Below are positions 187 through 19,489 of a stretch of 64,000 bases of DNA, one piece after another; position 1 is the first letter of the stretch; every line of letters begins with the position of its first letter. The notes under the pieces were generated by a model. The model searched no databases. It was not told where the DNA came from and was given only the letters and a program-made list of their open reading frames with translations. The stretch lies in the IMG/VR virus record IMGVR_UViG_3300043446_000566, positions 1 to 64,000 of that record; one strand, written 5' to 3'. A program made the position numbers and the translations under genes. The DNA comes from a virus.

Positions 187-247
187 ATTATACTGTTTTC
201 CACCAAAAAGTAAAGTGGTGAAAAACCTAATAGAATCAATGACTTAC
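187..247 (-). promoter_or_regulatory. Early sigma70-like promoter with conserved upstream block (copy 1)
   Basis: On the minus strand: -35 TTTACT at 209-214, 16-base spacer, -10 TATAAT at 187-192. Twelve bases upstream of the -35 is a 21-base block (227-247, GTAAGTCATTGATTC then TATTAG) that recurs with the same 12-base spacing at 11236-11256 and 13687-13707. It drives the partial gene at 1-153. The rest of the 154-320 gap holds a perfect 6-bp hairpin (GGGTCT/AGACCC, around 285-302) without a T-run, and no gene. Confidence 0.8.
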
Positions 248-320
248 GAGCGCAAGCTGGAAGGGCTGGTGGATCGATTGGAGCGGGTCTGGCTAGACCC
301 TTGGTATAGATGGTCTGGCG

Positions 321-815
321 CTAAAAAAGACTGTCCAGCATCTCTGGAGTCATTGGCCAGGTACGCTGGATAACACCAGCTTCCTTGAGCATTACATCCG
401 CGTGATCGATAGAGTAGTGTGTCCCAGCACCCTTGCCACCAAAAGGTCGATTTGGACCAATAATTTCTTTTATGCCAGCCTGAATAAGCGCACGAGTGCA
501 ATCAGCGCATGGCTTTGGTTCCCAGTTTAGATATGCACGGGCGCCTGCGAGTTTGATTCCATGCCGCGCAGCATTGTAGATTGCATTACGTTCAGCATGT
601 TCGACCCAGTGGTACTTTTCTGGGCGCTTCCATCGCGCTTCGTTCTTTTCTTCAATGCCTCGAGGAAAGCCATTGAAGCCTGTGCTGAGAATGACATTAT
701 CATCACTCACAATCACGCAACCCACCTTTGTTGACGAGTCTTTGCTCTTGTGAGCGATGACAGTAGCTTGTAGAATAAACAGTTCATCCCAAGTCATTTC
801 TTTATCATATAGCAT
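321..815 (-). CDS. cd: dCMP deaminase
   Basis: A zinc-dependent deoxycytidylate deaminase converting dCMP to dUMP, which feeds dTMP synthesis. The 164-residue length is typical of the small cytidine/deoxycytidylate deaminase fold. The zinc site is complete: HAE at residues 73-75 (His ligand and catalytic Glu) and PCADC at 102-106 (two Cys ligands). It starts at ATG 815 with an AGGA about 11 bases upstream; an internal ATG at codon 7 is a less likely start. It is the last gene of the replication/nucleotide operon and follows Hsp20 by 20 bases, so it may also receive late transcripts. Together with the dUTPase at 1321-1881 it can supply dUMP by two routes. Confidence 0.93.
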   Translation of the reverse strand: MLYDKEMTWDELFILQATVIAHKSKDSSTKVGCVIVSDDNVILSTGFNGFPRGIEEKNEARWKRPEKYHWVEHAERNAIYNAARHGIKLAGARAYLNWEPKPCADCTRALIQAGIKEIIGPNRPFGGKGAGTHYSIDHADVMLKEAGVIQRTWPMTPEMLDSLF

Positions 816-1886: not shown

Positions 1887-2291
1887 TTATTCCTGTGTTT
1901 TCTTTTTACCTATCGTGTACTTGGCTACCAGCTGCCACTGATTCTTGTCCTTGAATGGAAGAATCTTGATCTGACTCAATGGTGCATAAGGCTCTTTTGT
2001 CTTATCAGCGTCCACCAGTTTCACGAGACCCCATTCAGCCATCAGATTCGCAATCGTATTTCTACGCGCTAGATCATTCTCTGAGATGTTGCTAGGCTTG
2101 CCGTCAAGTTCAAAGAGTTCTTTGAAGTGAACGATATAGTATTTGCCTTGCTTGTGAAGAATGTGGCAAGACTGATACAGAATATTGTCATTCTTGGCTG
2201 CAACACCGATGCGAGTCAGAGTCTCACGGACCTTTAGAAAGTCGTCCTGCTTCTCTAGCTTTACCTCAATCAATTTATCGATACTACTCAT
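1887..2291 (-). CDS. regA: RegA translational repressor
   Basis: An RNA-binding protein that represses translation of many early mRNAs by covering their ribosome binding sites. The sequence aligns closely with T4 RegA over its whole length: DDFLKVRETLTRIG near the N-terminus, LYQSCHILHKQGKYYIVHFK in the middle, and WQLVAKYTIGKKK at the end. It is slightly longer than T4 RegA (134 against 122 residues) because of an MSSIDKL N-terminal extension and a C-terminal tail. I chose ATG 2291 because AAGGG lies 8-9 bases upstream; a GTG at 2300 overlaps the gp62 stop and is less likely. The T4 order 45-44-62-regA is kept, but the DNA polymerase gene does not follow. Confidence 0.93.
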   Translation of the reverse strand: MSSIDKLIEVKLEKQDDFLKVRETLTRIGVAAKNDNILYQSCHILHKQGKYYIVHFKELFELDGKPSNISENDLARRNTIANLMAEWGLVKLVDADKTKEPYAPLSQIKILPFKDKNQWQLVAKYTIGKKKTQE

Positions 2292-2292
2292 T

Positions 2293-2673
2293 TCAATCAC
2301 CCTTATATAATTGTTCTTTTATCGCGGTGATTTGAGAGTCAGATAGAATCTTTAGGGCTTCATATGCTTTAGCATCAGAATAACCATAATACTCTTTTAC
2401 AGCATTCAAATCATCGCTCTGAGCCTTTTTGTGCCATTTTGTATATGGGCGTTTCGCTGCTCTAACAATATTTAGTAAAAAATCTGCCTGTAGCTTTTTG
2501 TCGAGATTAGGGTATCGATTCATCTCGTTAGCTATCATTGCAGTGTCTCTATGGTTAGATAGAGCGCGATTTACCATGAATGCAGGATAAGAACGCTCAT
2601 CCTGATCAGTCAGGATGAACGGGGCTTTTGATTGTAGGATGCTTGGTAGAATTTCTTTGAATAAGTCTGCCAT
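2293..2673 (-). CDS. 62: Clamp loader small subunit (gp62)
   Basis: Small subunit of the sliding clamp loader, partner of gp44 in opening and placing the gp45 clamp on primed DNA. At 126 residues it is shorter than T4 gp62 (187), as is usual for the cyanophage-type branch. Supporting features are the N-terminal DLFKEILPSILQ, the FMVNRALSNHRDT segment, a basic KRPYTKWHKK patch at about 74-83, and its place between gp44 and RegA. The intervening gene 2675-3130 is not present at this spot in T4. Two bases separate its start from that gene's stop. Confidence 0.85.
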   Translation of the reverse strand: MADLFKEILPSILQSKAPFILTDQDERSYPAFMVNRALSNHRDTAMIANEMNRYPNLDKKLQADFLLNIVRAAKRPYTKWHKKAQSDDLNAVKEYYGYSDAKAYEALKILSDSQITAIKEQLYKGD

Positions 2674-2674
2674 A

Positions 2675-3130
2675 TCAATAGTCCGACACAGTATACTTTC
2701 TTAGTTCAGCAATGATATCATCTCTAATCTTATGAATTGGCTCGACAGCTTCTTGTTCGATGTCGATGAGAATCATCTGCCTACCATCTTTGGTGTAATG
2801 CGGTCTAGTGAGAAACTCAGAAGGATTTACCCTGAATAGCCAACCAGACCACTTATAGCTATGCATAGGAGCAGGAACTGTGATGAAGTATAATTCATCA
2901 ACATTTCTACACTTTCTAAGCTGATTGGATTTAATAGTCAATGCACGTTCTCTGATGAACGGAACTTGCGTCTTGACTTCAACTTTCTTACCGTCGCAAA
3001 TAAGATCTTTCTCAGAATCATACTTATTAATCGATGGCGCTACCTTACGACCTTCGGAGCTAAGATAGCCGATAAGATATTTCTCGCCCATCAGTCCCAT
3101 TTCATTCATCTTGTATTCACGAGTTATCAT
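2675..3130 (-). CDS. PD-(D/E)xK nuclease-like protein between the clamp loader genes
   Basis: A 151-residue protein that I cannot assign to a named T4 gene. It carries a plausible PD-(D/E)xK active site: an Asp in EKDLICDG followed after a short turn by EVKTQ, preceded by a Glu-containing helix (GLMGEKYLIGYL). This layout is typical of Holliday-junction resolvase and restriction-endonuclease-like folds. The start at ATG 3130 overlaps the gp44 stop as ATGA, implying translational coupling to the clamp loader. Its position inside the 44-62 operon suggests a role at replication forks or in host DNA breakdown, which is inference. The rest of the protein (aromatic SYKWSGWLF, basic C-terminus) gives no further clue. 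Confidence 0.6.
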   Translation of the reverse strand: MITREYKMNEMGLMGEKYLIGYLSSEGRKVAPSINKYDSEKDLICDGKKVEVKTQVPFIRERALTIKSNQLRKCRNVDELYFITVPAPMHSYKWSGWLFRVNPSEFLTRPHYTKDGRQMILIDIEQEAVEPIHKIRDDIIAELRKYTVSDY

Positions 3131-4062
3131 GAGAACTTGCACTCCACCATCATTTCGGTCAAACACGCAACGAGATTCAACTCTTGATCTGCGACAAAAG
3201 CAGCTTGATATTGATACCTAGCAAGAATAATCACTGCATTTGGAATCGTAGACTTGTCCATCACATCATACAGACTGTCATAGATCTTGCGGAAGATACG
3301 CACTGGATCTTCAGAGCCATTCTCTGCGACCCACTTACGCATTGCACCGAAATCTTGATTCTTCAAAGAGGTGACAAGTTCATTGATCGTGACATCAGCA
3401 ACACTCTTTAGAATGCCGACATCAATCTTGCCACTGACCGAATAGCGCTGGAGTTCGTTTAGAACACGACGATAATCGGGGAAGTGCTTCTTTACTACTT
3501 CAACCAGCACTGCCTTATCAAATGGAACTTTCTCAGCATTAAGAATCTCTGCTGCACGTTTCATAAACAAAGCAGCCATCTTCGGCTTGTCTTCTTTACG
3601 CAGCTTGAATTCAATCACAGCACAGCGACTATGAAGAGGCTCAATGATGCGATTCTTATAGTTGCAAGTCATGATGAACGTGCAATTATGCGCAAACTCT
3701 TCCATAGCCGCGCGCATAGCTGGCTGGGTACTATTGGGATTTAGATAATCTGCCTCATCGATGATGATGACTTTCTTACCGCCATCAAGCGACATTGAAC
3801 TTGCATAGTTCTTGATTTTGACTCTGAAAGTATCAATGCCTGACTCATCAGAGCCGTTGATCATCAAATAATCGCAGCCAATCTCATCACACAAAGCACG
3901 AGCAACTGTAGTCTTACCTGTGCCTGGACCACCGCAAAGCAGAAGATGTGGAATCTCTTTGCGATTCACATAGCTTTGAAAAGTAGTCTTGTACTCCTCA
4001 GGAAGAATACAATCAGCAATAACATGAGGACGATATTTTTCAACCCACAAGGATTCATTCAT
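3127..4062 (-). CDS. 44: Clamp loader large subunit (gp44), AAA+ ATPase
   Basis: ATPase of the clamp loader; uses ATP to load the gp45 ring at primer-template junctions. The 311-residue length matches the family. Motifs: N-terminal WVEKYRP, Walker A GGPGTGKT at 44-51, Walker B IIIDEAD ending at 105, sensor 1 TCN at 132-134, and the SRC arginine-finger motif at 145-147, followed by the lid and C-terminal collar domains. It starts at ATG 4062 with overlapping downstream coupling to 2675-3130. The upstream neighbour is a Tat-signal protein rather than gp45, so the T4 clamp/loader gene order is interrupted here. Confidence 0.95.
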   Translation of the reverse strand: MNESLWVEKYRPHVIADCILPEEYKTTFQSYVNRKEIPHLLLCGGPGTGKTTVARALCDEIGCDYLMINGSDESGIDTFRVKIKNYASSMSLDGGKKVIIIDEADYLNPNSTQPAMRAAMEEFAHNCTFIMTCNYKNRIIEPLHSRCAVIEFKLRKEDKPKMAALFMKRAAEILNAEKVPFDKAVLVEVVKKHFPDYRRVLNELQRYSVSGKIDVGILKSVADVTINELVTSLKNQDFGAMRKWVAENGSEDPVRIFRKIYDSLYDVMDKSTIPNAVIILARYQYQAAFVADQELNLVACLTEMMVECKFS

Positions 4063-4077
4063 AATATAAACTCCAAA

Positions 4078-4401
4078 TCAAGCAGTTACTATTCTAGCCC
4101 ATTTCCCGTTCTGTTTCAAGTACAAATTTCCGTCTGGACCGACAGTCATATTTACTCGAACATCTTTGCGAGTGCCTGGAGCAAATGTACCTGTTCCTAT
4201 AATCGCACATGGGTGATGGTTGAGGTCTGGTGGCATCGGATCGCCATATGTTGCATGAAGCGCTAATGTACTGTTGTATCCAGAGGCTTCAATTTTCTTG
4301 ACTGCTTCCGATGCTTCACTTCTACTCGGTAGAATAGAAGGCATAACAGCAGCGCCAGCACCAAAACCTAAAGCCTGAAAGAATTTTCTTCGAGTCGTCA
4401 T
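4078..4401 (-). CDS. Small protein with a twin-arginine (Tat) signal peptide
   Basis: A 107-residue protein of unknown function with a textbook Tat signal: TTRRKFFQ at residues 2-9, a hydrophobic ALGFGAGAAVMP segment, then a Ser/Ala-rich region with possible cleavage near SEA. The mature part of about 75 residues includes GDPMPPDLNHHPCAIIG, ending in VGPDGNLYLKQNGKWARI, which looks like a compact beta fold. Tat export implies folding in the cytoplasm and delivery to the periplasm through the host TatABC machinery. The start is ATG 4401 with GGAG 10 bases upstream. A structured element (4426-4496) precedes it. Phage proteins with Tat signals are uncommon; a host-modifying or exclusion role is only a guess. 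Confidence 0.8.
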   Translation of the reverse strand: MTTRRKFFQALGFGAGAAVMPSILPSRSEASEAVKKIEASGYNSTLALHATYGDPMPPDLNHHPCAIIGTGTFAPGTRKDVRVNMTVGPDGNLYLKQNGKWARIVTA

Positions 4402-4425
4402 ATCAATTACTCCATAATGAAAAGA

Positions 4426-4496
4426 TGGGGCGGGGAAGGTGAACTCCCACGGCGAGCAGTCTGGCGGAGTGTGCCGTCAAAAGAAATTGCGCCCCA
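4426..4496 (-). other. 71-base GC-rich structured element (terminator-like or tRNA-like)
   Basis: On the minus strand a perfect 7-bp closing stem (TGGGGCG at 4496-4490 with CGCCCCA at 4432-4426) encloses two inner helices: ACGGC/GCCGT, and GGGA/TCCC with an AGTTCACC-like loop. TCTTTT follows the closing stem. The size and closing stem are tRNA-like, but there is no D-arm, no normal 7-base anticodon loop and no CCA. A terminator or a small structured RNA or leader for the Tat-signal gene is equally possible. Confidence 0.4.
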
Positions 4497-4502
4497 ATAA
4501 GA

Positions 4503-4661
4503 TTATTTAGCCTTTTTAGCCTCAAAATATTTTTTGGCAAGATTAATATATCGGTTCATCGTCTCCTCATGCGCAAGGCACTCTTTATTCCATAAAGAAT
4601 TCAAGGTATCTACCGCTTTCTCCAATTCAGCAATTCTCTCTTTATATTGATTTTCCGACAT
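4503..4661 (-). CDS. Short coiled-coil protein
   Basis: A 52-residue protein starting MSENQYKERIAELEKAV, chosen because AAGGA lies 8 bases before ATG 4661. Almost the whole chain is predicted amphipathic helix (heptads in ERIAELEKAVDTLN), with a basic C-terminus AKKYFEAKKAK. It is followed by the structured element at 4426-4496. I do not recognise it. The position between the DsbA-like gene and gp44 suggests an accessory of the replication or late-transcription operon. Confidence 0.6.
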   Translation of the reverse strand: MSENQYKERIAELEKAVDTLNSLWNKECLAHEETMNRYINLAKKYFEAKKAK

Positions 4662-4677
4662 TTTGTAATCCTTGTTG

Positions 4678-4917
4678 TTACTTCGCCACTTTCTCGTAAA
4701 TCTCAACAAAATCATTTTGCTCTGCAACTTCTTCCTCAAAGTTGCGCTTGTGATACACTCTAGCCAGCTTTCGACCTAGCTTCTTTGGAATCTCAGTCTC
4801 ATCTTGCATACGCTCAAGAATTTCTTTGATCAGATCTCGCTCTGACTCGATTCGAGTTAGCGAGTTAGAAATCTCAGAAAGCATCCCAAGGATCTTGGCT
4901 TTATCAGTAGGTGACAT
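4678..4917 (-). CDS. dsbA: DsbA-like double-stranded DNA-binding / late transcription protein
   Basis: A 79-residue protein whose C-terminal half (KKLGRKLARVYHKRNFEEEV, then a segment ending in IYEKV) matches the pattern of T4 DsbA, where LLALYHKDNRDVF is followed by ELYDTV. T4 DsbA binds double-stranded DNA and affects late transcription. The N-terminal half is helical (EISNSLTRIESERDLIKEIL). The start ATG 4917 has GGAG upstream and sits 3 bases after the gp45 stop, so it is co-expressed with the clamp, which itself acts in late transcription. The assignment rests on motif memory and context. Confidence 0.7.
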   Translation of the reverse strand: MSPTDKAKILGMLSEISNSLTRIESERDLIKEILERMQDETEIPKKLGRKLARVYHKRNFEEEVAEQNDFVEIYEKVAK

Positions 4918-4919
4918 AA

Positions 4920-5594
4920 TTATTCTCCAAAAGTAGACAGCGTAGACTCAATCGCGATGATGTATGTAATGGGTATGTTCTTATGCTTGAACTGTGCGCC
5001 CTTCTTTGTGATTGTGACATCATATGAGCCATCCATCATCTTGATGTTTTCTGTTTTCATTACGACGCAAAATTTCGTGCCGTCACCAGCACCAATTTCA
5101 ATCTTAGACTGATCAGCAGCATCATCTGATGGATCAGTCGCAATGAAATTGATTACATCGCCATCACTTTCAAAAATAAAGTATGGCGAGTTTGAAATGC
5201 CAGCAGATTTCTTCATCCACTCAAGATCATCTTCCGATAGAAGAAAAGAACAGTATGTTTCACCAAGTGAGATACTCTTATCAGGAGCAACGGCGATTAC
5301 TTGCGGTGAACAATATTTGATATTGTCCAGCTTCTTCTTGTTCTCAGTAGCGATGATGATTCTATCATCATCGAAAGACAGATCAGCACCATTGTACAGA
5401 GAAACCTTTGCAAGAAACTTGTTTAGGTCATACAATGCAAACTCTTTTGTAAGAGTTTCAGTGATCGTAGCCTCAGCGAAGATAGTCTTCAAAGGCGAAA
5501 TAGTTCGCAGAGTATTACCAGTCTTGAATTGAAGACTTTGATTGATTGTTGAAAAGTTTTTCAACACATTGATAGTAGCATCAGACAATTTCAT
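4920..5594 (-). CDS. 45: DNA polymerase sliding clamp (gp45)
   Basis: Homotrimeric ring that tethers the replicative polymerase and also activates late promoters together with gp55. The 224-residue length equals T4 gp45 (228). Recognisable features are the start MKLSDATINVLKNFSTIN, the two-domain PCNA-like pattern and a C-terminal ITYIIAIES strand. The first 14 bases overlap the end of the dNMP kinase gene, so the two are translationally coupled. It heads the clamp / DsbA / clamp loader / RegA block as in T4. Confidence 0.93.
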   Translation of the reverse strand: MKLSDATINVLKNFSTINQSLQFKTGNTLRTISPLKTIFAEATITETLTKEFALYDLNKFLAKVSLYNGADLSFDDDRIIIATENKKKLDNIKYCSPQVIAVAPDKSISLGETYCSFLLSEDDLEWMKKSAGISNSPYFIFESDGDVINFIATDPSDDAADQSKIEIGAGDGTKFCVVMKTENIKMMDGSYDVTITKKGAQFKHKNIPITYIIAIESTLSTFGE

Positions 5595-6252
5595 GATTTA
5601 TTTCCTCATTCGCTTCAACATGAACATTATTATGCACGGTTTTCGCTAGACTGTCAACTACAGTAGCCAAGTCATCTAGCGAACCATTATTTGTAATTGT
5701 AGCATCATACTCACAGCCAATCCATGCCCATTCACTGTAATGAACGTCTGGATATTTTTCAGCCATTCCGTAATAGTCTCGCTTAGAATTTACATTCAAA
5801 GCAGTTTCATACCATTCAGGATCTGGACCTCTACGCACACGAACAATCATGCCGCCTGCGTTTTTAATCGCATTGATTTCGTTTGGAAATCTAACATCAG
5901 CAATAACATAATTATTCCAAGACGATAATTCACAACGACGCATTGTTGTATAGACCCAGATGTCTTGGTGAAAGACATCACGCCCTGCTTCAGTGCCCAT
6001 TAGCTGAAGTGCAAGTCTTGGTGTAAAAGACTTGCCCATCTTTTCAGACCAATAGATATCTGGCTGTTCGCGCCATGTACGAGAGTCTGCTGTATCGCCT
6101 TCAAGAAGAGCGCGATTCCAACCAAAGATGATTGAAACCGCGTCCTTCACACTGTTAGCAAAACTTTCCTTGAAATAGCCATGTCTATCTACAAGAATGT
6201 CTGCGACACTGCCTTTGCCGCTGCCGATTTGACCAACAAGTCCAATAATCAC
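5581..6252 (-). CDS. 1: Deoxynucleoside monophosphate kinase (gp1-like)
   Basis: P-loop kinase that phosphorylates dNMPs to dNDPs for DNA synthesis; in T4 the enzyme also accepts hydroxymethyl-dCMP. Walker A is GQIGSGKGS at residues 7-15. Further family features are RLALQLMGTEAGRDVF around 80-95 and VIADVRFPNE around 117-126. It starts with GTG at 6252, with AAGG about 9 bases before it. The 223-residue length fits T4 gp1 (241). It lies directly downstream of two glycosyltransferase-like genes, which is worth noting if this phage carries a modified base. Confidence 0.88.
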   Translation of the reverse strand: MIIGLVGQIGSGKGSVADILVDRHGYFKESFANSVKDAVSIIFGWNRALLEGDTADSRTWREQPDIYWSEKMGKSFTPRLALQLMGTEAGRDVFHQDIWVYTTMRRCELSSWNNYVIADVRFPNEINAIKNAGGMIVRVRRGPDPEWYETALNVNSKRDYYGMAEKYPDVHYSEWAWIGCEYDATITNNGSLDDLATVVDSLAKTVHNNVHVEANEEINHEIV

Positions 6253-7081: not shown

Positions 7082-8014
7082 TCAATCTCCTACCATAATA
7101 CCCTGTGGTGTAACATCATCAGCAGAAGAAAGTGTAACCAACTTCATGCCGTACTCATTGGTGCCTTTAGGTAAAACGACACCCTTTTTCAACTTCAGCT
7201 TATTCTTCTTGAATGGAGTATAGTCAACATAGTGATGCCAACGACCATACTTCCAAACAATCTGTGCAACATCTGGATGCATATCTACCAGCATCTGGGA
7301 CTTGTTGATAGTACCAGCAGCATGATATTGACCCAGCTTGACCTCTTCAGCATTTTCTACAAACTCTTTGTGATAGAATTCGTCTGTATTGCCACCCTTT
7401 ACTGTTTGAGTCGCAGACTTGCCTTGCATGAATGCATTGAACTGCACAGTGCAATCTCCGTCTTTCAGAACACGCAAACAGATATCAGTATCTTCATTGT
7501 ATCTACCACGCCAGCGATGCTTGCAATCATTACGAATCAACAGACACGAATAGATGCGAGTGTTTGTAACGTATGGCGGATATTTCTGGTTAGGAGCAAT
7601 GAAGAATCGATATTGAGGTCCAGCAATATATAGGTTTTCATATCGATCAAAAAAGTCTTCCATGACTTTGAAGAAGACACCAGACTCTACACGAATACGA
7701 TCATTGCGATTCAGTCGATAGAAGTCTGTAATATTGTCATCAAGAACCCAGTGCGCTTTAGCACCGATGCTGATCGAATGGTCCCATGCCCAGTTTCGAG
7801 CGCGACCAGGACCATCGCCGTGATTAGAAAACGGTGCAACAAGAAGCGTTACACCACGAAGTTGAAATTCAACAATAGCTTTTTCATACAATTCTTTGTC
7901 TTGAGGCTCAATAATAATATAATGAGGTATATTCATTCGAGACAATGATCGAGAAGTCAGCATTGATTCATGCCGACCCTTTGATACGATATAGACTGGA
8001 TAAGTAGGGTTCAT
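7082..8014 (-). CDS. TAGT-type (TET-associated) glycosyltransferase
   Basis: A 310-residue protein with the signature order of the TET/JBP-associated glycosyltransferase group of phage base-hypermodification systems: YIVSKGR at 8-14, GPGRARNWAW at 68-77, WVLDDNITDFYRLNRN at 89-104 (DD as the metal-binding acid pair), and RWRGRYNEDTDICLRVLKDG at 167-186, followed by KGGNTDE and the C-terminal YGRWHHYVDYTPFK. Known family members are thought to transfer sugars to hydroxymethylated pyrimidines in phage DNA. ATG 8014 overlaps the stop of 8011-8592 as ATGA, so the two proteins are made together. No TET/JBP oxygenase is present in this window. The family assignment is from memory. Confidence 0.7.
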   Translation of the reverse strand: MNPTYPVYIVSKGRHESMLTSRSLSRMNIPHYIIIEPQDKELYEKAIVEFQLRGVTLLVAPFSNHGDGPGRARNWAWDHSISIGAKAHWVLDDNITDFYRLNRNDRIRVESGVFFKVMEDFFDRYENLYIAGPQYRFFIAPNQKYPPYVTNTRIYSCLLIRNDCKHRWRGRYNEDTDICLRVLKDGDCTVQFNAFMQGKSATQTVKGGNTDEFYHKEFVENAEEVKLGQYHAAGTINKSQMLVDMHPDVAQIVWKYGRWHHYVDYTPFKKNKLKLKKGVVLPKGTNEYGMKLVTLSSADDVTPQGIMVGD

Positions 8015-11402: not shown

Positions 11403-13619
11403 TTAGATAGCAGTAGCAATTTCTTCAGCGAACTTGCTGACCAGAATGCGACTAGTCTTCTTGCCCTGTTGCATCTTCTTGAACGCATTAGTGATGCCAG
11501 TCTTGGTCAGACCACGAACGTCGCCGAGCGTAGCATCAGTGATGTTTTGCTCTGAAGAGAGGACGTAGAAATACCTGTGGTAGCCAAGCGCAGAAGTCGC
11601 AAAGAACTTTTCGTCACGATAAGAATTCTTTATCTTCTTAGCGTCTTCAGGATTCATACTTGCAACAGCACCATTCAACTTGTACTTGATAAAAGAATTG
11701 TCGGCAAGATAGAAGCCAATGTGCTTGCAGCCAGTAGCAGCGGCGACCAGTTTCGTCACAGCCGTTTGCTGATCACCATTCTCGACACGAACTTTCTTGC
11801 CAGTCTTTTTCTCTACAAGATAAGTGACAATTTTGCGCGAATCGTAATAAGAGATACTCGGATCATACGGATAATTCATGCCGTTACCGCCCTCACCGTC
11901 AGTCAAATAAAGCACGTTGACGATGTCCAGTTTCTTCTCACTCTGAAACTTTCGGATCATTTCAATTGAAGCAACCAGAGTCGGGACAAACGGAGTGCCG
12001 TTCAGACCAAAACCAGCATCATCCCAGCGGCTAAAATTGCCGTGATCTTTACCAAAGGAATCGTAATCTTTACGATTGTACTCATTGATGATTACGGCAA
12101 GCATGTTGAAAGACTTGCGGTACTGAATGCTGTTCAGACTGCTGCCGATCAAATGCTTGAGATGAAAACTCCCTCCATTGATCACACCGTAAGTGGTATC
12201 GGGACTATTGAAGATCGCACGATTGGACTGACCAAGACTCGAATACCAATCATCCGAGAAGCCATAGACATCAAACGGAATGTTAGCCAGCTTGCAGAAC
12301 GAAGCAAGCACAAGACTCTGTTCGATTGTGTTGCGCATGAGGTTATACATCGAACCAGACATATCAACGTACATGATAAGACCATGGCTCTTGCCCTTCG
12401 GCACTACATCAATCTTGCGGAACAGGTCATTGCTGAACTTGTACTTGTGCAGCACATTCATGTTCAATTCGCCAGTCCGCGCAGTTGTGGTGCGGGCATA
12501 TTGCGTAGCCTTCTTGCGCATCTCGAATTCTTTCAGAAGATGCATGATGTACTTTTTATTGTTCTTGTTGAACTTGCCGACGCACTTCTGAATGACGGTA
12601 TCATAAGAAATACCATTCTTGCCATAGGGCAGATAAGTATCGGCAACTTGCTTTTTGATGAAAGACTCGAGGTCATTCATCACAACATTATTGTTTAGAA
12701 TCGCCTTGCTGAGGTCAACTTCAGGCAGATTGAATATCTGAACCAGACCAGACTCATTGATCAGTTCTTTTTCTTTAGAACGGAAAATGCGATCAGTGAC
12801 CGAGCGAGGCTCACCGTCTATGTCGCCAGAGTCTTCAGAGTTTTCAGACTCTTCACCAGACTCTTCTGCCGAGTCCGATTCTTCAGCGTCTTCATTAGAC
12901 TCTGAAGCAGCCTCGAATTGATTCGAATCGTCCCAATCGCCCGAATCATTAGAATTGTCATAGTCTTCGGACTCGCCAGAGTCTTCACCAGACTCAGGCT
13001 GCATAGCCTCATCAAGATCATCCATGCTCTTGATTTTAGTAGGCTCAGAGTCTTTTACATAACCGTAGACACGCTTGGCAATATCTTCAACTTGTTCCCA
13101 AGTCTCGGCATTGTCAATCTCGCGCAAAAAATTGCGCTCGGCATCCGAGAACGAAACGACAACATGCGCACCCAACTTGTAGTGGACGTTGATCCGATCG
13201 ATCAAATTCAACTTGCTGAGATCACCAAGTTTCTTGATGCCGAAGAAGTCGCGATCATACAGGCTCTTGTATGCATTGGCAAAAGACTTGCCAAGACCAG
13301 GGTAGCGGCGCTTCTGACGGCGCTCGATTCGAGCATCCTCGATGACGTTGAGGAAGTCCTTGTACTTGCGACGGTCAGCCTTATCAGCACTATCGATGGC
13401 GTTGTGCCAGCCCTGCTCAGGAGTATCAAGAGCATGACCGACCTCATGACCAGTCAGTAGATCATAGAGATCACCGTCCATGTCAGTCCAGATAGGGAGC
13501 GTGATGGTACGGGTCTTGAAGTCAAAGTATGCGGTACTAGTCTTCTTATGGACAACCGTGATGTTCTCGGATGCCATCAACTTGGCTAGTATCGACTTGG
13601 TGTTTTCTAGATTTGCCAT
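11403..13619 (-). CDS. CobT-like protein: metallopeptidase-like N-terminus, acidic linker, VWA domain
   Basis: A 738-residue protein in three parts. Residues 1-190 hold GHEVGHAL (HEVGH at 58-62) and a downstream NVIEDARIERR (91-101), the arrangement of gluzincin-type zinc peptidases and of CobT-like N-termini. Residues about 200-270 are an extremely acidic Ser/Glu/Asp linker. The C-terminal half contains a von Willebrand A domain with a complete MIDAS start DMSGSM at 419-424, then YGFSDDWY and VLYLTDGEGG. It is the obvious partner of the MoxR/CobS-like ATPase at 9591-10952. GAGGG precedes ATG 13619 and it has its own promoter (13646-13674). The substrate is unknown; a protein-remodelling or peptidase system is inferred from the domains. 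Confidence 0.85.
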   Translation of the reverse strand: MANLENTKSILAKLMASENITVVHKKTSTAYFDFKTRTITLPIWTDMDGDLYDLLTGHEVGHALDTPEQGWHNAIDSADKADRRKYKDFLNVIEDARIERRQKRRYPGLGKSFANAYKSLYDRDFFGIKKLGDLSKLNLIDRINVHYKLGAHVVVSFSDAERNFLREIDNAETWEQVEDIAKRVYGYVKDSEPTKIKSMDDLDEAMQPESGEDSGESEDYDNSNDSGDWDDSNQFEAASESNEDAEESDSAEESGEESENSEDSGDIDGEPRSVTDRIFRSKEKELINESGLVQIFNLPEVDLSKAILNNNVVMNDLESFIKKQVADTYLPYGKNGISYDTVIQKCVGKFNKNNKKYIMHLLKEFEMRKKATQYARTTTARTGELNMNVLHKYKFSNDLFRKIDVVPKGKSHGLIMYVDMSGSMYNLMRNTIEQSLVLASFCKLANIPFDVYGFSDDWYSSLGQSNRAIFNSPDTTYGVINGGSFHLKHLIGSSLNSIQYRKSFNMLAVIINEYNRKDYDSFGKDHGNFSRWDDAGFGLNGTPFVPTLVASIEMIRKFQSEKKLDIVNVLYLTDGEGGNGMNYPYDPSISYYDSRKIVTYLVEKKTGKKVRVENGDQQTAVTKLVAAATGCKHIGFYLADNSFIKYKLNGAVASMNPEDAKKIKNSYRDEKFFATSALGYHRYFYVLSSEQNITDATLGDVRGLTKTGITNAFKKMQQGKKTSRILVSKFAEEIATAI

Positions 13620-15998: not shown

Positions 15999-17059
15999 AC
16001 TGACTCCATTGCGATAGCTTCATTGTATATATCGCGCATGACAGTCTTTATTTTATCTGATTCGACAGGCAAAGTCAAATTATCAATGTACTTGTACAGA
16101 ATGCTGATCGTATCTTCAGCTTGATCAACATCAATGTCATCAGCTTCAGAAGTGATCTCTGTAAAGTCTTCTACGACAGTTACATCAAGCGGACTGACTT
16201 GAGCAATCTCATCGAGAAATGTATCAAACATGTAAGCATTTGTTTTCTTTTCAACTACAATCTTCACATACTTGCCAGCAAAATCAGAAATATTCTGTTG
16301 TGAGATTTCGCTCAGAGAATTGATGTTCTCATCGTTGTATCTGATCTTGTAGAACATTCTATGCGGATTCGTGATAAACGTCAGTTCGTGAGTATCGGTA
16401 TCAAGAATATGAAAGCCGCGAACATCGTCACAGTCTGACCAGGTCATTTCATATGGAGTGCCGACATAGTTGATATGCCCATCATTACTCTTATGGTGAA
16501 AGTGACCAGAAAGAACCATCTCGTACTTTTTCAGTACAGAAGCATTCATGCCCTCGTGGCAAATATTACCACGATCCATTTCATAGCCAGCAAGTTCAAA
16601 ATGCCCTAGACAAATTGAAGCAGTGCTGCGCTTGATAAAATCTGCGATCTCTGCTTCGTTGTCTTGACAGATCCAAGGAATGATGTCAATACCGAATTCT
16701 TTATCGCTATGTGGCTTATCGAAAATACAAATATTTTCGTACTCTTTCAACAGCAACTGAGGAGAGTTCACATCTAGCGTATTCTTGAATGCGATATCGT
16801 GATTGCCGAGTAGAGTATAAAAGCTGATGTTTTTATCGCGCATGACATCAAAGAAATACTTGCGGCAAAGCGCAAGAGTCTGGAATGAGATATACTTGCG
16901 ACGATCAAACAGGTCACCCAGCTGATATACTATGTTGATTCCATTCTCTTCGAGATATGGAAAAAACACTTCTGTATAAAACTTCTTATACAGATTATGA
17001 AAGGCTAGACTATCTGATCTAACGCCAAAATGGCAGTCGCCAAGTATTGCTATCTTCAT
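15995..17059 (-). CDS. 47: Recombination endonuclease subunit gp47 (Mre11/SbcD-like)
   Basis: Metallophosphoesterase nuclease subunit of the gp46/gp47 complex. The phosphoesterase motifs are in order: GDCHFG at 7-12, GDLFDRR at 48-54, GNHD at 85-88, and a later SGHFHHKS with the last metal-binding histidines. The 354-residue length is close to T4 gp47 (339). ATG 17059 overlaps the gp55 stop as ATGA, and the stop overlaps the gp46 start, so gp55, gp47 and gp46 form one coupled translation block. Confidence 0.95.
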   Translation of the reverse strand: MKIAILGDCHFGVRSDSLAFHNLYKKFYTEVFFPYLEENGINIVYQLGDLFDRRKYISFQTLALCRKYFFDVMRDKNISFYTLLGNHDIAFKNTLDVNSPQLLLKEYENICIFDKPHSDKEFGIDIIPWICQDNEAEIADFIKRSTASICLGHFELAGYEMDRGNICHEGMNASVLKKYEMVLSGHFHHKSNDGHINYVGTPYEMTWSDCDDVRGFHILDTDTHELTFITNPHRMFYKIRYNDENINSLSEISQQNISDFAGKYVKIVVEKKTNAYMFDTFLDEIAQVSPLDVTVVEDFTEITSEADDIDVDQAEDTISILYKYIDNLTLPVESDKIKTVMRDIYNEAIAMESV

Positions 17060-17589
17060 AGACCCTCATCTACAAATTTTTCAAGTGCTGTTTTCTTTGC
17101 TACTTTTTTAGTATTTCTGGCTGTCTCGTAGTTTTCGATAAACTCTGAGATGTTCTCGTAGAGTTCAAATTGGCGGAATGTGCCATCCTCATTCTCATTG
17201 AGTTCAAACTCATCCAGTACGCCAGCTGATTCAGTTGCTTTGTATTTGACATAGAGTTGCTTCTTTTCTTTTTGAATGCGTCTTAGAAAGGCATAATACG
17301 TTATTTGGGTAAAATAAGCAAACGGATTGTTAGACTTCGAGGGATCAAAATTATCTACATACATCACACAATTTTCAATCGCATCAGCGACCATCTCATC
17401 ACGAAAGGTATATGACAAGAAGTTTGGTTTGTGCGAAAGGTTCTCAGCAATTTTCATAAAGCACTCAGCCACATATCTAGGAATCTGCGGCTTCTTCTCT
17501 TTGAGTCTCTTTGCTTTTGATACTGCCTGACGATACTTGATCATCTCAGTCAGAAAGTCTTTGTTGTTGATATAGTGATTCTTTGCCAT
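17056..17589 (-). CDS. 55: RNA polymerase sigma factor for late transcription (gp55)
   Basis: Phage sigma factor that recognises the late TATAAATA element with host core RNA polymerase and requires gp45 for activation. The sigma-2-like core is visible in the stretch FRDEMVADAIENCVMYVDNF, then DPSKSNNPFAYFTQITYYAF and LRRIQKEKK (about residues 62-108), the hallmark of gp55 proteins. The 177-residue length is close to T4 gp55 (185). It is the key regulator for the late octamers upstream of the capsid, tail and Hsp20 genes in this window. Confidence 0.93.
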   Translation of the reverse strand: MAKNHYINNKDFLTEMIKYRQAVSKAKRLKEKKPQIPRYVAECFMKIAENLSHKPNFLSYTFRDEMVADAIENCVMYVDNFDPSKSNNPFAYFTQITYYAFLRRIQKEKKQLYVKYKATESAGVLDEFELNENEDGTFRQFELYENISEFIENYETARNTKKVAKKTALEKFVDEGL

Positions 17590-17598
17590 GATATGCTC

Positions 17599-18006
17599 TT
17601 AGTGTACTGGTTTGTCTTTCTTAGTGATCATTGCTTCCACGATTGAAATAACATTGTCTGTGGATTCAACAGTCTTTTTGCTCTTCTTTTTACTCGACTT
17701 CGCATCTTTATCAACGTAAAAGTAATCGCTTGCACTCTCGTATTGTTCGATGAACGTACTCTTCACATTTGTGACAAAGAACACTTCAGTCATAGGAAAC
17801 TCTACAGATGTCTTATCGATAATCGACTGAGGCAGAAACTCTTGAAGCATTAGAATCTGTTTGCCCTCTTCAAAGATTGTTTCAACATCTACGACCATCG
17901 GCTTTTCAATTGTGACGCTGTTTTCTGTTTGAGTGACAAAACCTATTAGATCAAGGCAGTGCGGTGTCTTGAGTCTTACGAACTTGATTGTTTTCTCGTC
18001 TGCCAT
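17599..18006 (-). CDS. Sm/LSm-like small phage protein
   Basis: A 135-residue protein whose first 70 residues (KFVRLKTPHCLDLIGFVTQT, then VTIEKPMVV) have the strand pattern of the Sm-like beta-barrel proteins that T4-like cyanophages carry beside uvsW or gp55. The C-terminal third is Lys/Ser-rich (SSKKKSKKT) and probably disordered. AAGGAT precedes ATG 18006, which follows the UvsW stop by one base. Its role is unknown; RNA binding is only suggested by the fold resemblance. The gene order uvsW - this protein - gp55 is a conserved T4-superfamily arrangement as far as I remember. Confidence 0.65.
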   Translation of the reverse strand: MADEKTIKFVRLKTPHCLDLIGFVTQTENSVTIEKPMVVDVETIFEEGKQILMLQEFLPQSIIDKTSVEFPMTEVFFVTNVKSTFIEQYESASDYFYVDKDAKSSKKKSKKTVESTDNVISIVEAMITKKDKPVH

Positions 18007-18007
18007 G

Positions 18008-19489
18008 TTATCCTTCTTGTCCTAATCGAACATTAGTTGTTTTGAATTCAAACTTCTCTTCACTATAAATTTTGATACGCTCTTCGTAATGTCTCAACGC
18101 GAAATTGACTTGATCTTTATATCGTAGATCATCAGCAAGATCATACAGCACAGCCTTAGTCTTGTTGTTGCCAAGTCTTAGAACACGACCGATAGACTGA
18201 AGAGTTCTGATCTTACTCTTTGTGGGAGCAGCAAAAATAATGTTGTGAAGATTCTTGATATTTGTTCCTGTAGAAAACGTACCATACGACGCAACAATAA
18301 TCGCGTTTGTCTCTTGTTCAGTGATGCGGCGCACTTCTTCACGATCATCAACTTCTGTTTCGCCACTGACAAAGAAAACCTTACGATCTTGCTTTTCATT
18401 CAGGACCTTTTCATCGATCATCGCTTTGAGTATTTTACCATGTTTCTGGACATAAGTAAACAATACAAGTGTATTCCCTTCAAGACTCATAGCAAGATTG
18501 CGGATGAATCTATTGCGCTCTTCGTTTGAGACAAGAAAGTCCATCTCTTCTGGATATGATCTACCCTTAGTCAACTTGCAAAAAATTTCTGGATATTTCA
18601 GCACGATGCACTTGATCGAGAAGTCTGCTAGCTGCTTTCGCTCGATCAGTTCTTTTGTTGATATCACACGTTGAACTGGTCCAAACAGTCCTTCAAGAAC
18701 TAGTTTATTGACTTCGCTGTTATCTAGAGTTCCTGTAGTGCCGACTCTTACATCACAGTTGATCAGCTTTGTCATGATTGATGTCAGAGACTTAGCCTTG
18801 AACGTATGCGCTTCGTCGCCAATGATGAAATCAAACTGCTTGAAATACTTTTGTGGCATTTCAAAAATAGATTGCCATGTAGAGATGACAAGATCAGAAT
18901 CTGCTATCTTGCTTTGCCCTTGATAGACTTTTTGGCAGTGTTTGTCTACATCCCAACCATTGTTTACAGAGTATTCTTTGAAATCTGAGTGCATCTGCGC
19001 AACAAGATTGACCGTAGGAACTATGAGTAGTCCTTGCTTCTTGCCAGAACTCAACAGATGGCGAATCATTATGTAAATGATCAGCGACTTGCCTGAAGCA
19101 GTCGGTGAGATCACAACGGTTCTTTTTCTTGTAAGACCGACACTTGAGGCTAAGTATTGATAGTCTCTTGGCTCCATTGGCAGTGACAGAGAATTAGCGA
19201 TGTTCTTTGTATCGACAGGATACAATTTTTCGTCTGCGTCATACTGATAGCTGTAGCCGCTATCAGCGCAATACTTGCGGATGTAACGCTCTAACCCAAG
19301 GTAAATCTGATTTGTCTTGAGACTCAGAAGCCTGATCTTGCCATCCCAATGCTTGTTGCGATATGCTGGGCTGAACTGATGATTAGGCGATTCAAACGTG
19401 AAGAAGTCTGCAAGTTCTTGCAGAATGCCTGGGTCTGCTATCACTTTGGCATGGATATTATTCAGTTTTTCTACTTTGACATCACACAT
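18008..19489 (-). CDS. uvsW: UvsW ATP-dependent helicase
   Basis: Superfamily 2 helicase that unwinds branched DNA and R-loops, switching the phage from origin- to recombination-dependent replication. It aligns along its length with T4 UvsW: an N-terminal domain with FSPAYRNKHWDGKIRLL, Walker A SPTASGKS, IVPTVNLVAQM (motif Ia), GDEAH (motif II), ASYGTFSTGTNIKNLH (motif V) and QSIGRVLR (motif VI). I place the start at ATG 19489 (493 residues) because it overlaps the UvsY stop as TGATG and begins MCDVKVEKLNNIHAKVI, like the T4 protein; a longer upstream frame would run inside uvsY. Confidence 0.94.
   Translation of the reverse strand: MCDVKVEKLNNIHAKVIADPGILQELADFFTFESPNHQFSPAYRNKHWDGKIRLLSLKTNQIYLGLERYIRKYCADSGYSYQYDADEKLYPVDTKNIANSLSLPMEPRDYQYLASSVGLTRKRTVVISPTASGKSLIIYIMIRHLLSSGKKQGLLIVPTVNLVAQMHSDFKEYSVNNGWDVDKHCQKVYQGQSKIADSDLVISTWQSIFEMPQKYFKQFDFIIGDEAHTFKAKSLTSIMTKLINCDVRVGTTGTLDNSEVNKLVLEGLFGPVQRVISTKELIERKQLADFSIKCIVLKYPEIFCKLTKGRSYPEEMDFLVSNEERNRFIRNLAMSLEGNTLVLFTYVQKHGKILKAMIDEKVLNEKQDRKVFFVSGETEVDDREEVRRITEQETNAIIVASYGTFSTGTNIKNLHNIIFAAPTKSKIRTLQSIGRVLRLGNNKTKAVLYDLADDLRYKDQVNFALRHYEERIKIYSEEKFEFKTTNVRLGQEG

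Follow-up and report, generated by a model that had tools for sequence, protein, structure and literature searches.

A family of small proteins with a predicted twin-arginine export signal in the clamp-loader operon of uncultured T4-like phages

The closest described counterpart of the locus considered here is Spackle (gp61.3) of phage T4, an early, periplasmic protein with a mature form of 75 residues that excludes superinfecting phages together with Imm, according to the accessible passages of PMC7677548. The resemblance extends to a small, apparently early phage protein, an export signal, a mature part of similar length (75 residues in Spackle vs 74 here) and a T4-like phage as carrier. However, Spackle folds as a disulfide-containing helical bundle, whereas one helix and four strands are predicted for the protein described here, which bears a twin-arginine (Tat)-type signal and whose phage shows no detectable T4-type lysozyme domain. 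Library searches of Pfam, PHROGs and PDB sequences returned no Spackle-named match for the family, and no phage Tat family was found in print in the accessible part of the open-access literature.

The window, a stretch of 64,000 nucleotides from virus record IMGVR_UViG_3300043446_000566, carries on its minus strand a gene (4078..4401) that sequence comparison assigns to a family of uncultured T4-like phages without a name in the libraries searched. The gene starts with ATG, has GGAG 8 bases ahead of this codon, and encodes a 107-aa protein beginning MTTRRKFFQALGFGAGAAVMPSILPSRSEASEAV. Residues 3-9, TRRKFFQ, agree with the Tat consensus (S/T)RRxFLK as given in the accessible parts of PMC1182353 and PMC3383694, the twin arginines being encoded by CGA AGA (4387..4392, minus strand). 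The motif is followed by the uncharged stretch FFQALGFGAGAAVMPSILPS, the best 16-residue Kyte-Doolittle mean being 1.44 in the window protein vs 1.86 in a class B sequence, with Tat candidates alone compared. The predicted signal peptide spans residues 1-33 (4303..4401, minus strand), comprising TRRKFFQ, a weakly hydrophobic stretch and an S-E-A end; read by eye, S-E-A (residues 31-33) is a plausible cleavage site that would leave a mature protein of 74 residues (4081..4302, minus strand). A sequence-only reading of this DNA had described TRRKFFQ plus a hydrophobic stretch in a 107-residue protein with a mature domain of about 75 residues, and the open reading frame (ORF), the motif, the uncharged stretch and the length of the mature part all bear this out.

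The distinctiveness of this signal was assessed with a rule combining the TatP pattern RR.[FGAVML][LITMVF], taken from the accessible part of PMC1182353, with a run of 13 or more uncharged residues. Among the 96 longest non-overlapping ORFs of at least 50 aa in the window and L247, the Tat-signal gene alone passes, while 23 of 19,200 shuffled N-termini and 162 of 100,000 shuffles of the first 60 residues of the window protein do so. Signal prediction thus stands by the TatP-based rule but not by the NCBIfam Tat model TIGR01409, with which the window protein scores 14.6 bits, below the cut-off of 16.7, and its signal is therefore atypical by that yardstick. Relatives fare better: among seven scanned, TIGR02811 matches six (best E 4e-5), TIGR01409 five (best E 0.00031) and PF10518 four (best E 0.017). 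The relatives show by eye an alanine-rich stretch near the signal end, and no cleavage motif is common to all members. Taken on its sequence, the window protein very probably carries a functional Tat signal.

The earlier placement of the gene in the middle of a replication operon holds. The order, on the minus strand, is the sliding clamp gp45 (4920..5594; phrog_223, E 2.2e-55), a dsbA-type transcriptional regulator (4678..4917; PF11126, E 1.3e-14; phrog_639, E 7.3e-20), a structured leader RNA, the Tat-signal gene, the clamp loader subunit gp44 (3127..4062; phrog_168, E 6.3e-127, and tblastn), a 163-aa ORF without a PHROG, the clamp loader subunit gp62 (2293..2673; phrog_225, E 2.5e-37) and the translational repressor regA (1887..2300; phrog_242, E 5.2e-59). 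A 78-aa ORF without a PHROG (4503-4739) lies between dsbA and the leader RNA and overlaps dsbA. Ahead of gp45, inside the 3' end of ORF 5581-6252, there is a sigma-70-like promoter, TTGACA-17-CATAAT, with 11 of 12 consensus matches (5629..5657, minus strand), 35-63 bases before the start codon. Such sites recur across 78 distinct gp45-upstream sequences, the best site reaching 12/12 in 46 (all TTGACA-TATAAT), 11 in 23, 10 in 6 and 9 in 1, with none in 2, and the distance from gp45 is the same in 19 of 25 printed upstream sequences. A point against its significance is that this stretch is in general richer in promoter-like matches than shuffles are (12 vs 5.4). Because the site is near-consensus for sigma-70, transcription by host RNA polymerase would be expected, and hence early transcription, which suggests that the Tat-signal gene is expressed early in infection. 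The claim of early expression, made from the sequence before, is therefore backed indirectly by the promoter before gp45, but it is qualified by two loci, L021 and L038, in which a late-promoter-like TATAAAT is seen by eye just after the leader RNA and before the cargo genes. TATAAAT is the T4-like late promoter in the accessible passages of PMC9004378. Also against early expression, dsbA contains a weak terminator-like hairpin, located between the promoter and the Tat-signal gene. The exact sequence TATAAATA has three copies on the window's minus strand, all of them away from the Tat-signal gene.

The leader RNA (4426..4496, minus strand) is a predicted four-way junction of about 71 bases located upstream of the ribosome-binding site of the Tat-signal gene. 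Its alignment was built from 72 distinct elements at 232 places, reduced to 56 by dropping near-copies and to 55 by removing L188, a chance match without gp44; two of its rows, L184 and L103, are divergent and look misaligned in the outer helices. In these 55 sequences, 19 consensus pairs form four helices, and 16 of the 19 show changes on both sides. Cells that pair amount to 96.5%, vs 86.1% in shuffles and at most 59.8% with slid partners, and the covariation score is 0.452, vs 0.245 and at most 0.136, respectively; one of five measures, the count of additional pair types, does not stand out (29 vs 28.0 in shuffles, with 135 of 500 shuffles reaching it). The RNA is present in one copy each in six of seven uncultured contigs, the seventh (G006) starting or ending at the Tat-signal gene, and was not found in three named records (Mosig, SynMITS9220M01 and AG-345-L05). 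A search of Rfam 15 gave no match at gathering scores or at E up to 10; a single Rfam hit beside the RNA was judged to be chance, and identity as a tRNA was rejected, there being no tRNA in the window. No description was found in the accessible open-access literature, including passages of PMC2864571. When the RNA alone was used as a query, at least 120 stretches were fetched, contributing 111 new loci. In empty slots (26 loci, repeated contigs counted), the distance from the end of the RNA's TCACC motif to the start of gp44 is 33-47 bases; at cargo loci, counted in the same way, the first SD-ATG lies 33-38 bases after TCACC in 151 of 181, and none was found in 21. Since the RNA precedes gp44 in empty slots as well, it goes with the clamp-loader leader rather than with the Tat-signal gene.

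Leader RNA and gp44 flank a slot (window 4063-4425, with its counterpart in L086-L196), whose contents in relatives characterize it, on sequence comparison, as a site of exchangeable cargo behind a structured RNA. Among the RNA-found matches listed, gp44 begins within 4 kb at 94 of 111 loci, yielding 68 distinct slots, of which 26 contain a Tat gene with a small transmembrane (TM) gene, 11 a Tat gene only, 3 a TM gene only and 10 other cargo, while 18 are empty; neither Tat nor TM gene is present in 28 of the 68. The other cargo includes a protein of 112-119 aa, and some of these ORFs look like homing endonucleases, a reading of our own rather than a match to a family. With 18 of 68 slots empty, the Tat-signal gene is accessory. 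This optional character would also suit an envelope or metabolic accessory protein, related to nutrients or redox, in place of a role in superinfection exclusion. Such a role is unlikely, given that an enzyme of about 75 residues would be small and that the mature part of 27 members contains no invariant Cys or His.

The Tat and TM genes occur together above expectation (Fisher p 3.8e-7 over all slots and 0.007 over occupied slots only, relatedness being ignored). In eight representatives the TM protein has 53-57 aa and two hydrophobic stretches by eye, and the small partner of many relatives is probably a two-TM membrane protein. At L050, around 8001, the TM gene overlaps the Tat gene, its stop codon beginning inside the second arginine codon, and the overlap is similar at many other loci. 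T4 Imm is a two-TM protein as well. Imm acts with Spackle in the accessible account of T4, and many relatives likewise pair the Tat gene with this 53-57 aa protein; unlike them, the window phage has no match to the TM partner in its 84 kb record (perhaps incomplete), and a Pfam search with two TM representatives gave no match to an Imm family. A rather unlikely, tentatively held elaboration is that of a two-component envelope protection, in which a Tat-exported protein and a small two-TM protein would form exchangeable cargo behind a new four-way-junction RNA, as a Spackle/Imm counterpart of unrelated parts. In this elaboration, the Tat route would be used because the protein must fold before export, and cargo expression would be tied to the replication genes because the cargo lies behind the leader RNA in the clamp-loader operon. 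The same partner could instead point to lysis timing, with the Tat protein as a periplasmic antiholin or lysis regulator resembling T4 RI, itself a small periplasmic protein of similar size, and with the partner as a holin-like protein. Its 53-57 aa, its two hydrophobic stretches and the gene overlap in L050 would suit that arrangement, which is nevertheless unlikely since the pair is located among replication genes behind a host-type promoter, no lysis gene was recognized by eye beside it, and the TM representatives gave no hit to any named family of holins at E up to 0.1.

The mature part is organized around a conserved C-terminal module, DVRVNMTVGPDGNLYLKQNGKWARIVTA in the window protein (4081..4164, minus strand, from the family alignment), the family layout being a signal, then a middle that varies and an end that is conserved, V.GPDGE.YL.TNGKWR.IVTE. 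An AlphaFold2 model of the window protein contains a helix at 29-39, beginning inside the signal end, and strands at 46-52, 79-87, 93-97 and 100-104. Confidence in these elements is moderate (mean pLDDT 70), and the conserved module is predicted as beta strands; a second model, of a fibre-like variant, is poor (pLDDT 54). The window protein has no match in Pfam and hits 0 families in PHROGs, and no family covering the whole protein was found in either library. Foldseek with the window model gave no match in PDB at E up to 0.001; VIA-align reached at most Z 2.5, PliC at Z 2.1 tying with unrelated rows; and sequence matches to PDB 'Cake' were rejected as the sum of a short repeated stretch, every printed repeat having an i-Evalue >300. 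The closest viral model is BFVD A0A6J5LER3, a 114-aa protein of an uncultured phage whose function is not named (Foldseek probability 0.95, 24% identity over 103 columns, E 0.01, TM-score 0.25), which is possibly a family member.

A derivation from tail fibers deserves mention here, in which the mature part would be a beta-fibre fragment exported folded through Tat as a decoy or a piece for fibre assembly. Some members have the middle LRLD.SG.L.LGT.AP..KL and give weak tail-fibre PHROG matches: phrog_18345 matches 3 of 27 members (best E 0.0002) and phrog_9942 6 of 27 (best E 0.0015), the common stretch being LRL..G.L.LGT.AP..KL. One member (L114) also shows 48.8% identity over 41 residues (E 0.06) to a protein of cyanophage S-CBP3 that is annotated as tail fiber in one of three records. 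However, this stretch is confined to a minority of members; tail-fibre matches are lacking for the window protein, encoded in a replication operon, and for most of the 27 members, and no second copy of the conserved module was found in the window phage record, so that a mini-fibre is improbable.

Conservation of the twin arginines was examined from several directions. A first scan of viral contigs returned an identical copy and one relative of 46% identity, a second added five more, and a third, based on the resulting seven-member alignment, gave 181 relatives among 237 stretches, of which the best 80 were kept; RR conservation in this third set is partly built in, because one of its two patterns held RR. 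Across the ORFs of the collected loci, a full-length HMM detected family members at 146 places, corresponding to 67 distinct proteins (some truncated at contig edges), and RRxFF is present in all 67. A scan restricted to patterns from the C-terminal half gave 361 stretches and 157 relatives, of which the best 80, those nearest to the mature part of L014, were examined; RRxFF lies upstream in frame at 78 of these 80, and the two loci without a visible motif (L200 and L211) begin at or just after a contig edge. Among the matches listed, the family is encoded at 60 of the 111 loci found through the leader RNA, with RR in 60 of 60, and 51 have no family match, 12 of which have <600 bases after the RNA. 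The full-length, mature-part and leader-RNA searches are separate queries that partly returned the same contigs. No homologue lacking RR, the finding that the sequence-only reading had named as fatal to its proposal, appeared in any of the three sets, and its Tat-type signal is upheld both by the single pass among 96 ORFs and by RRxFF in all homologues examined whose N-terminus lies inside the contig.

At the codon level, upstream ORFs overlap in 46 of 68 distinct RR-selected gene sequences, and conservation of the RR codons there is therefore not independent evidence; the 22 without a detected overlap use six arginine codon pairs, at least two of them (L008 and L239) having too little upstream sequence to judge. 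A tblastn search of 50,697 phage records with five queries (window, L007, L004, L114 and L036) found no family member, only partial matches at E 0.06 to 6 to proteins annotated as tail fibre or hypothetical. A match at archaeal locus L246 (38% over query residues 16-66), one of 126 stretches from a mature-part scan of genome contigs, was not accepted as a homologue. The alternative that the N-terminus is a membrane anchor that stays uncleaved, or a Sec signal in which RR is incidental, which draws on the sub-threshold NCBIfam score of the window protein and on the absence of a cleavage motif shared by all members, is improbable in view of RRxFF in 67 of 67 proteins and at 78 of 80 mature-part loci (best 80 of 157), the varying arginine codons, and a stretch that is weakly hydrophobic, as Tat signals are in the accessible part of PMC1182353.

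Placing the product of a functional Tat signal in the periplasm assumes a Gram-negative host, which is likely judging from the phage kin. The best capsid matches, all <60%, are T4-like phages of Pelagibacter, Synechococcus, Stenotrophomonas and Methylophilales, and the best clamp-loader matches among those listed, again all <60%, are Synechococcus phages and marine single-cell viruses. No psbA-type gene, a sign of a cyanobacterial host, was found in 14 records, most of them fragments, yet the host may be cyanobacterial all the same. Several further features were noted in the phage record. At its far end (L247), ARAGORN reports a tmRNA* at 11568-11882 with the tag ANDDVYDMALAA, a mark denoting a permuted tmRNA, and 16 tRNA genes at 16667-19277. 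Short ORFs near the two record ends (window 215-373 and L247 16537-16734) have LERV.LDPWYRWSG in common, and the latter overlaps a tRNA-Met. In addition, a TET-associated glycosyltransferase encoded at window 7082-8014 (minus strand; PF20691, E 2.7e-45) may point to modified DNA bases.

With the export tag kept in the related genes examined, delivery of a small phage protein into the host envelope is probable, and an envelope function is likely given the small size of the product, its Tat signal and the host-type promoter. The preferred reading is that of a Tat-exported early envelope protein acting in superinfection exclusion. Host Tat would export the small phage protein across the inner membrane early in infection, the signal peptide would be cleaved, and the exported protein would act in the cell envelope to shield an already infected cell from a second phage, much as Spackle and Imm do in T4, though built from other protein families and carrying a Tat-type signal. 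Specificity would reside in the variable middle, and the conserved C-terminal module would make a contact that members have in common. As a whole, this statement is given a probability of roughly 0.45, with superinfection exclusion, by analogy with T4, as the leading guess for the function. The mechanism nonetheless probably differs from that of Spackle. No PF00959 lysozyme domain was detected in five of five phage records, including gp5 of the window phage (472 aa), which was located by its OB domain, found in four of the five; inhibition of a T4-type tail lysozyme, the mechanism of Spackle, is therefore unlikely here, and another exclusion step, at the receptor, the tail tip or inner-membrane entry, is possible. 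The gp5 of G001 (L249) is longer, with a C-terminal part that looks CHAP- or NlpC peptidase-like by eye, unlike gp5 of the window phage.

Phage-encoded periplasmic proteins are already known, and a large family in which the Tat signal is conserved would establish that the folded-protein export route is used by phages as a rule. The 67 distinct natural variants share a C-terminal module, and their Tat dependence and superinfection effects are directly testable in laboratory strains. With its leader RNA and swapped cargo, the slot further offers a place in which to seek additional early phage effectors in uncultured phages.
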